The position numbers and the translations under genes were made by a program. This document shows positions 28,598-34,281 of a DNA stretch of 34,281 nucleotides, piece after piece (position 1 is the first letter of the stretch; each line of letters starts with the position of its first letter). The stretch covers positions 1 to 34,281 of the forward strand of contig JALOPN010000002.1 of assembly GCA_025453875.1 (NCBI GenBank), read 5' to 3'. The stretch comes from Gemmatimonadaceae bacterium (GTDB lineage Bacteria > Gemmatimonadota > Gemmatimonadetes > Gemmatimonadales > Gemmatimonadaceae). The notes under the pieces were generated by a model. The model was not told the origin of the DNA. It did not search any database and saw only the letters and a list, made by a program, of their open reading frames with translations.

Positions 28598-29005
28598 ATG
28601 GCCTACAAGATCACGGAGATCGAAGGCATCGGCCCCGCGTTCGCCGAGAAGCTTGCCACCGCCGGCATCAGCACCACCGAGCACCTGCTCGAACAGTGCG
28701 CCGATGCGAAAGGCCGGACAGCGGTTGCCGAGAAGACGGGCGTGGACGTGTCCCGTCTGCTCAAGTGGGCCAACATGGCCGACCTGATGCGCATCTCCGG
28801 AATTGGCGGCGAATACAGCGAACTGCTCGAGGCCGCCGGCGTCGATACGGTGAAGGAGCTGCGCACGCGCCGGCCCGACAACCTCGCCGCGAAGATGGCC
28901 GAAGTGAACGAGACGAAGAAGCTGGTGCGGCAGGTGCCGACGGAAGCCGCCGTGACGAAGTGGGTGGAGCTGGCGAAGGCCATGGACCCGAAGATCACCC
29001 ACTGA
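28598..29005 (+). CDS. DUF4332 helix-hairpin-helix protein
   Basis: This is a 135-residue cytoplasmic protein. Two helix-hairpin-helix-like motifs are visible: IEGIGPAFAEKLATAGISTTEHLLEQC and ISGIGGEYSELLEAAGVDTVKELRTRRP, the pattern of DUF4332. Such motifs bind DNA non-specifically in other proteins, but the function of this family is not established. AGGAG lies 8 bases before the ATG, one of the strongest ribosome-binding sites in the window. It begins 43 bases after the pump gene and is followed by a clear terminator, so it probably ends the efflux transcript or has its own promoter. Confidence 0.9.
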   Translation: MAYKITEIEGIGPAFAEKLATAGISTTEHLLEQCADAKGRTAVAEKTGVDVSRLLKWANMADLMRISGIGGEYSELLEAAGVDTVKELRTRRPDNLAAKMAEVNETKKLVRQVPTEAAVTKWVELAKAMDPKITH

Positions 29006-29025: not shown

Positions 29026-29063
29026 AGCGGGCGCGTCGACAGCCGACGCGCCCGCTCTTTGTT
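29026..29063 (+). terminator. Rho-independent terminator after the DUF4332 gene
   Basis: Arms AGCGGGCGCGTCG (29026-29038) and CGACGCGCCCGCT (29044-29056) form a perfect 13-bp stem with a 5-base loop, followed by CTTTGTT. It lies 21 bases past the stop and closes the efflux/DUF4332 transcript. Confidence 0.88.
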
Positions 29064-29067
29064 CGGC

Positions 29068-29096
29068 TTGGCGAGAGCACCACTTGAGATTATTTT
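29068..29096 (+). promoter_or_regulatory. Promoter of the DUF3299-zrgA pair
   Basis: TTGGCG (29068-29073), a 17-base spacer and TATTTT (29091-29096) lie directly after the terminator. The expected start of transcription is at the ATG (29103) or within a base of it, so the first mRNA codon may be the start codon. No ribosome-binding site is present. Confidence 0.55.
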
Positions 29097-29102
29097 CTCA
29101 AG
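29083..29102. promoter_or_regulatory. Palindromic operator over the -10, candidate Zur-type site
   Basis: CTTGAGA (29083-29089) and TCTCAAG (29096-29102) are perfect inverted repeats around the A/T-rich centre TTATTT. The element covers the -10 and ends exactly at the start codon, where a bound repressor would block transcription. It is strikingly A/T-rich for this genome. The genes it controls are of a kind often zinc-regulated, so a Fur/Zur-family repressor is a reasonable guess; the sequence is not a canonical Zur box. Confidence 0.5.
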
Positions 29103-29645
29103 ATGCAGACGCCTCGCCGTCTCCTCCGCCCCGTCGTGTACGGGCTGATCGCCGTCGCTGCCGCAGTCGGCCTCTCGGTGCGCCGACCGAATCTGCAGGC
29201 GCGCGACGTGCCGGGGGCCGATGCGCTGTCAACGCAGCTGCAACGCGCCCCCGCAGTTGCCGCCGACGATGCGGCGGTGCACACGCTCGACTGGCGCACA
29301 CTCTCGGGGCTCGACGTCCGCACCGGCACGCCGAACGACGTCTTGCGCCAATTGAACGGCCGCCTCGTGCGCATCCCCGGGTACATCGTCCCGCTCGACG
29401 ATTTCGCCGAGGCGGTGTCCGAGTTTCTTCTCGTGCCCTACTTCGGTGCGTGCATCCACACGCCACCGCCACCACCGAATCAGATGGTGCATGTGCGTGT
29501 CACCGGCGACTCGCACCGATCCGCGAACTGGATGCAGCCGGTGTGGATCGAAGGACGGTTTGCGATTCGTGCCGTGACCAGCCCGTACGGCCTCGTGGCG
29601 TTCCAGCTGCAGGCCACCGCCATCACCCCGTACACGGAGCCCTGA
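29103..29645 (+). CDS. DUF3299 exported or membrane-anchored protein
   Basis: This is a 180-residue DUF3299 protein. An N-terminal hydrophobic segment (VVYGLIAVAAAVGLSV) serves as signal or anchor. The family core is obvious: LNGRLVRIPGYIVPLDDF, EFLLVPYFGACIHTPPPPPN followed by QMVHV, and the later PVWIEGRF. Cys and His in GACIHTPPPP could bind metal. DUF3299 genes commonly travel with metal-uptake genes, and here the next gene is a ZrgA-like zinc protein overlapping by one base (TGATG). Expression probably starts at the ATG itself from the promoter/palindrome directly upstream. Confidence 0.88.
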   Translation: MQTPRRLLRPVVYGLIAVAAAVGLSVRRPNLQARDVPGADALSTQLQRAPAVAADDAAVHTLDWRTLSGLDVRTGTPNDVLRQLNGRLVRIPGYIVPLDDFAEAVSEFLLVPYFGACIHTPPPPPNQMVHVRVTGDSHRSANWMQPVWIEGRFAIRAVTSPYGLVAFQLQATAITPYTEP

Positions 29646-30187
29646 TGCGATTCCCGACTCTGCTGGGCGCGCTGCTCGGCGTTGCCTTCACCACCGGTTC
29701 CCTCGAGGCACAACGCAAGCCCGCGCCCAAGGCGCATGCCCACGGACTCGCCACGCTCGACATCGCGATCGAGGGCAAGACGGGTGTGCTTCGCTTTGTC
29801 GCGCCCGCCGAAGATGTGTACGGATTCGAGCGCGCACCGCGCACCGCCGCCGAGCGACAGAAGCGCGAGGCGGCGCTCGCCACGTTGCGCACGCGCTTCG
29901 CCGAGTTGGTCATCTTCGAGGCCGCGCTCGGTTGCCGGATCACGAACTCGTCGCTCAAGGACATCGGTGATCATGGTGCCGGGCACGATCACGACGACGA
30001 CGGCGGTCACGCCGAGGTGACCGCCGAGTTCGCGCTCACCTGCGCGCAGGCACCGGCCGGCAAGGACATTCGCTTCGGCATCACGCGGGCCTTTCCATCC
30101 ATCCGCACGGTGCAGGTGCAACTCGTGAGCGATACGCAGCAACAGGGGCTGCGCGTGCAGAGTGATCGGGGTACGGTGCGCCCGTGA
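29645..30187 (+). CDS. zrgA: ZrgA-like DUF2796 periplasmic zinc-binding protein
   Basis: This is a 180-residue exported protein of the DUF2796 family. ZrgA of Vibrio, in this family, is part of a zinc-uptake system. A signal peptide (LLGALLGVAFTTGSLEAQ) is followed by KAHAHGLATLDIAIEG, the conserved histidine strand, and LRFVAPAEDVYGFERAP. A metal-binding loop rich in His and Asp, HGAGHDHDDDGGHAEV, lies at about 115-130. The ATG shares one base with the DUF3299 stop, so the two are coupled. The ABC transporter genes that accompany it in Vibrio are not visible here. Confidence 0.85.
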   Translation: MRFPTLLGALLGVAFTTGSLEAQRKPAPKAHAHGLATLDIAIEGKTGVLRFVAPAEDVYGFERAPRTAAERQKREAALATLRTRFAELVIFEAALGCRITNSSLKDIGDHGAGHDHDDDGGHAEVTAEFALTCAQAPAGKDIRFGITRAFPSIRTVQVQLVSDTQQQGLRVQSDRGTVRP

Positions 30188-32689: not shown

Positions 32690-34281
32690 TCAGGCCGCTC
32701 GGCGCAGACGCAGCGAGTTGACCACCACACTCACGGAACTGAAGGCCATCGCGGCGCTTGCCAGCATCGGGCTCAACAGCAGACCCGTGAGCGGATACAA
32801 CGCGCCCGCCGCGATGGGCAGCGTCACGATGTTGTACGCAAAGGCCCAGAAGAGATTCTGACGCATCGTGCGCATCGTGCGTCGCGACAACACCATGGCA
32901 TCGACCACACCGTGCAGGTCGCCACGCATGAGCGCGATATCCGCCGCTTCGACCGCGACGTCAGTGCCCGTACCGATGGCGAGCCCGACATCGGCACGCG
33001 CCAACGCCGGTGCATCGTTCACGCCATCGCCCACCATGGCCACGATGGCCCCGTCGCGCTGCAGTGCCTCGATCGCCGCGACCTTGCCCTCGGGCAGCAC
33101 GCCGGCGACGACGCGTGTGACACCGGCTTCACGCGCGACGGCCTGCGCGGTGGCCTCCTGATCACCGGTCAGCATCACGACCTGTAATCCCATCGCCTGC
33201 ATGCGAGCCACAGCCGCGCGCGACGTCGGACGCACCGGATCCGCCACGGCGAGCAGGCCGGCGAGCTCGCCGTCCACCGCCACGAACATCGTCGTCTGCG
33301 CCGAAGACGCGAGCCGCTCGGCGTCGATGCGCAGTGGGGTGGTGTCGATGGACCACGTCGCGAGATGACGCGCGTTGCCCACGAGGACCGCCCGGCCCTG
33401 CACCACCCCATGCACCCCGTGGCCCGTCGTACTCGCGAATGACTCCACGGGCCACACCGTGAGCGCGCGTGCGTCCGCTTCGCGCACGACGGCCGCCGCC
33501 AGCGGATGTTCACTCGCGCGTTCGAGCGAGGCCACGAGGCTGAGCATCTCGTCGGCGGTGATCGACGAACCGGGGACGCTGATGACATCGGTGACCGTGG
33601 GCTGTCCGACCGTGATGGTGCCGGTCTTGTCGAGCACGACCGTGGTCACATCACCGGCGCGCTGCAGGACCTCGCCGCCCTTGATGAGCAGGCCGCGTTC
33701 CGCGCCGCGCCCCGTGGCCACCATCACCGCCGTCGGCACCGCGAGGCCCATCGCGCAGGGACACGCGATGATCAGCACCGACACCGCCGTGGCGAAGCCA
33801 CGCACGGCCGCTTCTCCCGCGGTACCACCATGCAGCTGCACCGCCACGAACCACACCACGCCAGTGAGCACGGCCAACACGATCACGGCGGGCACGAACA
33901 CCGCGCTGATGCGGTCGGCGAGGGACTGGATGGGCGCGCGACTGCCCTGCGCGTCGCGCATGAGGTGCACGAGTTGCGCGAGCACACTGTCGCGGCCGAG
34001 TGTCGTGGCGCGAATGCGCACACTGCCGGTGCCGTTGATCGTCCCGCCGATGATGCGATCACCCGACTGCTTCGTCGCCCGTGAGCATGCTCTCGTCGAA
34101 CGCACTGGTGCCGTCGAGCACGATACCGTCGACCGGCGCGCGTTCACCCGGACGAATGCGTACCGTCTCACCGCGACGCACGTCGGCGACCGGAACATTC
34201 ACTTCCGTACCGGCACGCTCCACTCGTGCGGTGGGTGGTTGCAGCGAGGCAAGTGCGCGCAACGCCGAGGAGGTGCGTTGC
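32690..34281 (-). pseudogene. copA: Copper P-type ATPase (CopA-like), 3' part, frameshifted
   Basis: This is the C-terminal two-thirds of a P1B copper exporter; the 5' part lies right of the window. Recognisable parts are the metal-path CPC in LIIACPCAMGLAVPT, the phosphorylation site DKTGTIT, SEHPLAAAVV, MLTGDQEAT, MVGDGVNDAPAL and the C-terminal MAFSSVSVVVNSLRLR. The actuator domain is broken. One frame reads [17 protein letters not shown] and stops. The continuing frame picks up at [17 protein letters not shown]. Comparison with the usual TGESxPVxKxxGD order suggests about 14 bases are missing at 34070-34080, which removes the TGES loop needed for dephosphorylation and shifts the frame. 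Either it is a recent pseudogene or there is a sequencing error. Confidence 0.85.

Follow-up and report, generated by a model that had tools for sequence, protein, structure and literature searches.

Directly upstream of a zinc-linked gene pair of a Gemmatimonadaceae bacterium lies a short AT-rich palindrome which ends on the last base before the start codon. This raises the question of whether the palindrome is an operator and, if so, which protein reads it. In our reading the dyad is quite probably the operator of a zinc-starvation regulon, at which a Fur-family dimer would repress zrgE-zrgA; the best candidate is encoded on contig C407 of the same genome. That it is a zinc-repressor site is very probable, since sites of the same kind precede further zinc genes in the source genome and in its relatives.

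Gene arrangement and sequence features of the locus

The window, by which the whole analysed stretch of 34,281 nucleotides is meant, contains the gene pair downstream of a gene for a DUF4332 helix-hairpin-helix protein (28598–29005, plus strand; PF14229, E 5e-44). This gene is outside the zinc unit; in a relative of the same genus (G004) two other genes and a distance of about 3.3 kb separate it from zrgE. It is followed by a hairpin (29026–29056, plus strand) which is its probable intrinsic terminator. The perfect 13-bp inverted repeat reported in a preliminary description of the sequence was recovered, with arms at 29026–29038 and 29044–29056 and a 5-nt loop. The structure folds with −30.5 kcal/mol (z −3.9) and is on the list of terminator-like hairpins; its tail CTTTGTTC is a weak T-run with 5 T in the 8 bases past the stem. 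The window contains a single 13-bp stem of this kind, and one of six shuffles has one as well.

Further downstream the weak −35-like element TTGGCG (29068–29073, plus strand; 4/6 positions) is separated by 17 bases from the −10-like element TATTTT (29091–29096, plus strand). The distance between hairpin and TTGGCG had been given as 5 bases and has to be corrected to 11. Letters and spacing of the proposed promoter are present, but the pair matches the consensus at only 8/12 positions and was not reported by the promoter scan. Pairs of the quality 4/6 plus 4/6 were counted 12 times in the window versus 12.6 in shuffles, so they are no commoner than chance, and this holds for TTGGCG as well.

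The −10-like box is covered by the dyad CTTGAGA-TTATTT-TCTCAAG (29083–29102), which consists of perfect 7-bp arms (29083–29089 and 29096–29102), a 6-nt loop and the core TGAGA-N6-TCTCA at 29085–29100. The dyad runs up to the zrgE ATG at 29103, just as originally described. Palindromes with perfect 7-bp arms around a 6-bp loop are frequent, the window having 9 against an expectation of 6.5; however, this is the sole one there with at least 14 A+T among its 20 bases, and none was found in 100 shuffles.

The assignment of the two genes as DUF3299 and ZrgA-like was upheld by the Pfam families. The zrgE-like gene (29103–29645, plus strand) carries DUF3299 (PF11736, E 7e-35; 120.6 bits, cut-off 22), and the zrgA-like gene (29645–30187, plus strand), which overlaps the zrgE stop codon (TGATG), carries the ZrgA domain (PF10986, E 4e-39; 134.5 bits, cut-off 27.4). 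The product of the latter contains the His/Asp-rich stretch HGAGHDHDDDGGH and reaches 97 bits with the NCBIfam model ZrgA_Zn_trans, below the equivalog cut-off of 185 bits. Near the contig end a P-type ATPase fragment was seen on the minus strand (32690–34198).

No Shine-Dalgarno sequence was seen 5' of the zrgE ATG. Since TATTTT occupies positions −12 to −7 relative to this codon, the transcription start would fall at the ATG, which suggests that the zrgE-zrgA mRNA is probably leaderless. A similar AT box is located close to the ATG of the unlinked Fur-family gene in both genera, in the source genome and in related genomes. One survey records an anti-Shine-Dalgarno sequence for the class (PMC10783764), so Shine-Dalgarno-led starts are to be expected there too.

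Recurrence of the proposed operator motif at zinc loci

The source genome (G000) is a 64 % complete draft of 2.96 Mb in 410 contigs. The exact dyad arms CTTGAGA-N6-TCTCAAG have no second copy in it, and the exact palindrome was therefore rejected as a repeated motif. The proposed search for the palindrome before other zinc genes succeeded with the relaxed pattern TGAKA-N6-TMTCA, which occurs exactly three times in the draft, always at zinc or zinc-linked loci. One occurrence is the dyad core 5' of zrgE-zrgA. Another (C407:6587) lies 26 bases 5' of the gene for a Cys-free, i.e. zinc-free, L33 protein which is followed by a ZigA-type GTPase gene. The remaining one (C197:544) ends on the start codon of a DUF5916 gene, behind which come an ABC module and a COG0523 fragment at the contig end. 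The DUF5916 gene itself (G000:C197:559–2700) seems to shift frame after about 230 codons, which is either an assembly error or a broken gene. With one mismatch allowed, 23 places were found compared to 13 in a reversed control; among them is a fourth strong site, located before a ZIP-L31B operon on C407, a contig which also holds a Fur-family gene.

An independent 22-bp matrix was trained on 18 sites of another genus of the family (g23) only, and in the source genome the pattern matches plus selected stretches were scored with it. Within the window the dyad is best at 21.5, the next value being 6.0, and 100 Markov shuffles peak at 19.1. The other three sites of the genome score 26.3, 25.5 (the ZIP-L31B operon) and 24.2. 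The best of the remaining scored one-mismatch sites, before an ArsR-methyltransferase gene, reaches 18.9, and all others are at 15.8 or below. At two further zinc-type loci of this genome, a COG0523 gene on C251 and a DUF3299-ABC operon on C382, the matrix found no site.

In the one zrgEA pair available from the same genus (G004; 64 % and 59 % identity) the sequence TGAGAATAGATTATCA stands directly before the ATG, at the same place as the dyad of the window. The zinc cluster of g23 is composed of genes for COG0523 GTPases, zrgE, zrgA, a ZIP-like protein, zinc-free L31/L33 proteins and a Fur-family protein, and its promoters carry TGATA, TGAGA or TGCGA, N6, and TATCA, TCTCA or TCGCA. Across 12 genomes 24 of the 31 exact relaxed sites are at zinc or zinc-linked loci by our own tally, in which DUF5916-ABC and MerC-like genes are taken to be zinc-linked on account of their neighbourhood. 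ZIP promoters of three relatives score 30.0 (G001), 13.2 (G002) and 15.4 (G003) with the g23 matrix; the zrgA gene of G003 has no site.

Outside the family, 12 of 18 zrgA loci from other families of the class score at least 19.8 somewhere in the locus with the same matrix. With any spacing from 3 to 9 admitted over the 330 bases upstream, 16 of the 18 zrgA loci scored highest at 6, several of these top values being low. Genome-wide pattern counts for gaps 3 to 9 were 4, 6, 12, 26, 11, 10 and 8, with the maximum at gap 6. Twelve related DUF3299-ABC operons which do not contain zrgA showed no strong site (maximum 6.3, g23 matrix), and the median for proteobacterial zrgE loci was 6.0, although two of them exceeded 21. 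The original proposal of CTTGAGA-N6-TCTCAAG as a Zur-type site stands up well in a modified form: a looser motif, to which the outer C/G of each arm does not belong, precedes zinc genes in the source genome, in related genera and in other families. In addition, a site in another genome (G083:C77:5488–8998) precedes an AztD-like zinc chaperone gene and the gene for a TonB-dependent receptor behind it; the two likely form a zinc import operon.

The candidate regulator and alternative readings

The Fur-family gene at G000:C407:1713–2081 (PF01475, 63.6 bits, cut-off 23.1) is the candidate for the regulator. Among PDB chains its product most resembles those of Fur and Zur/FurB, with sequence matches to FurB/Zur (2o03, 3mwm), and two structural CxxC pairs, CRTC and CDTC, can be read in the translation. 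Genes of this type are present in 11 of 12 genomes, the orthologs in 10 other genomes being 72–83 % identical, and wherever the surroundings were inspected they belong to the zinc cluster or adjoin it. The search for a Zur-family regulator suggested at the outset yielded a Fur-family gene in the same zinc cluster. The NCBIfam Zur model NF008646 does not match the C407 protein; the other Fur paralogue matches it weakly. Moreover, the subfamily lacks the Cys that adjoins the His cluster in actinobacterial Zur and is presumably a metal ligand there; Ser is found at the aligned position in a relative (YERSGSAHHHH) and, by eye, Ala in the source genome (YEVAGQGHHHH). Because of this replacement and the missing match to the Zur model, we infer the zinc specificity of the protein from the genes that it would control. 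The promoter of the C407-type gene itself has a half site at most. In another genome (G345:C4:93089–93523) a strong site is located 60 bp upstream of the start of a second Fur paralogue with 56 % identity, which is possibly autoregulated.

As long as zinc is sufficient, a Fur-family dimer, most likely the C407 protein, would bind the dyad and cover the −10 region, so that transcription of zrgE-zrgA would be blocked. At low zinc the repressor would be released and both genes transcribed, probably starting at or next to the zrgE ATG and giving a leaderless mRNA. The sequences show the dyad itself, its conservation in place and letters at the G004 ortholog pair, its recurrence before other zinc genes and the preference for a 6-bp spacing, whereas the identity of the regulator, zinc as the signal, repression as the effect and the start of transcription are inferences.

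It is also conceivable, although rather unlikely, that the dyad is an operator of the zinc regulon which is read by another protein, either the C138-type Fur, the second paralogue of the genome, or a repressor of the ArsR/SmtB type. The draft of G004 keeps the site and has a C138-type Fur, while the C407 type is absent from it, and ArsR-family genes are found in the zinc clusters of some relatives. However, the ortholog of the neighbouring SseA gene is also missing in G004, which makes a draft gap likely, although the gene may have been lost; the C407-type gene accompanies the zinc cluster in the inspected genomes, whereas an ArsR gene is found in some clusters only. A Rex-like or CRP-like regulator is hardly credible as the reader. 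In its favour, two near-matches with 2 mismatches and TTGTGA-N6-TCACAA-like sequence precede atp genes in the source genome, and a Rex-type domain is encoded there. Against this, the zinc sites of the g23 training set read TGAKA or TGCGA, never TGTGA, and most inspected exact sites adjoin zinc genes. The two near-matches, TTGTGA/TTGCGA-N6-TCACAA, lie just before an ATP-synthase I-like ORF (G000:C133:873–892) and upstream of atpA (G000:C151:35041–35060), and the Rex-type DNA-binding domain is located at G000:C46:38–181. These sites are Rex-like and may belong to a Rex regulon, and they were set aside as members of the zinc regulon.

That the dyad works at the RNA level, as a hairpin which controls translation just before the start codon, and not as a DNA operator, is very improbable. 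As RNA it does fold (−8.9 kcal/mol, z −3.9), but relatives keep the letters and break the pairing (TGAGA/TATCA, TGATA/TCTCA), which is why this reading was rejected; sites between divergent genes and at variable distances to the starts argue against it too. There is equally little to be said for a functionless AT-rich palindrome that happens to lie beside a zinc gene pair. The abundance of such arms in the window and the uniqueness of the exact arms in the genome would fit a chance origin, which is contradicted by the independent matrix, the conservation at the ortholog, the recurrence at zinc loci and the spacing preference.

Relation to known zinc regulons

Zur regulons in general are governed by a Fur-family repressor and comprise zinc import, COG0523 and zinc-free L31/L33 genes, and Zur boxes of several lengths are known (PMC6103462). 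The regulon proposed here has the same types of targets and a Fur-family candidate, with inverted repeats recurring before zinc-homeostasis genes as expected of a Zur box; in contrast to the general picture, its candidate targets add a DUF5916-ABC module and MerC-like genes. The Zur box of Streptomyces coelicolor is the 15-bp sequence tGaNNatSatNNtCa with 7-1-7 geometry (PMC5472717). It has in common with our sites the TGA...TCA dyad and a position upstream of genes for zinc import, COG0523 proteins and zinc-free ribosomal proteins. However, the 7-1-7 geometry of 15 bp is not found at our sites, where the preferred spacing of 6 results in an even-centred element of 16 bp (TGAKA-N6-TMTCA) with one base more between the half sites. 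The operator is therefore best read as a putative 16-bp variant of the known 15-bp Zur box.

A search of a paper library found no described Zur or zinc-starvation regulon for Gemmatimonadota; a regulon open to assay, whose operator is defined and for which a candidate regulator can be named, would now be at hand for this group. A wider reading is tentative, with doubt slightly prevailing: a distinct 16-bp zinc operator, YGAKA-N6-TMTCR, may be common to the whole group and be read by a Fur-family protein with a metal site unlike that of known Zur, the regulon including a leaderless zrgE-zrgA, DUF5916-ABC and MerC-like genes. If this is true, the regulon takes in membrane modules which are not known as zinc genes, and DUF5916, its ABC partner and the MerC-like proteins, whose role is unassigned, would be linked to zinc.

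In Vibrio, zrgE encodes a DUF3299 protein and zrgA is repressed by Zur; in Vibrio parahaemolyticus both belong to one operon and are induced 76-fold and 206-fold, respectively, by zinc limitation (PMC9817125). The locus described here likewise encodes ZrgA together with DUF3299 (ZrgE) behind a putative zinc-linked operator. Whereas zrgABCDE of Vibrio is one operon of five genes with the putative site TGAGTGTTATATTATAACACCCG (PMC9817125), the zrg system is split in the source genome. There the zrgE-zrgA pair stands alone; the second DUF3299 gene, accompanied by genes for an ABC ATPase and a permease, is located elsewhere (G000:C382:12270–14894) and has no site. The zrgE-zrgA pair is thus separable from the ABC genes that share its operon in Vibrio. 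A GCGTAnTATTC-like element is shared 5' of the DUF3299-ABC operons and may represent the −10 region commonly used in this group.
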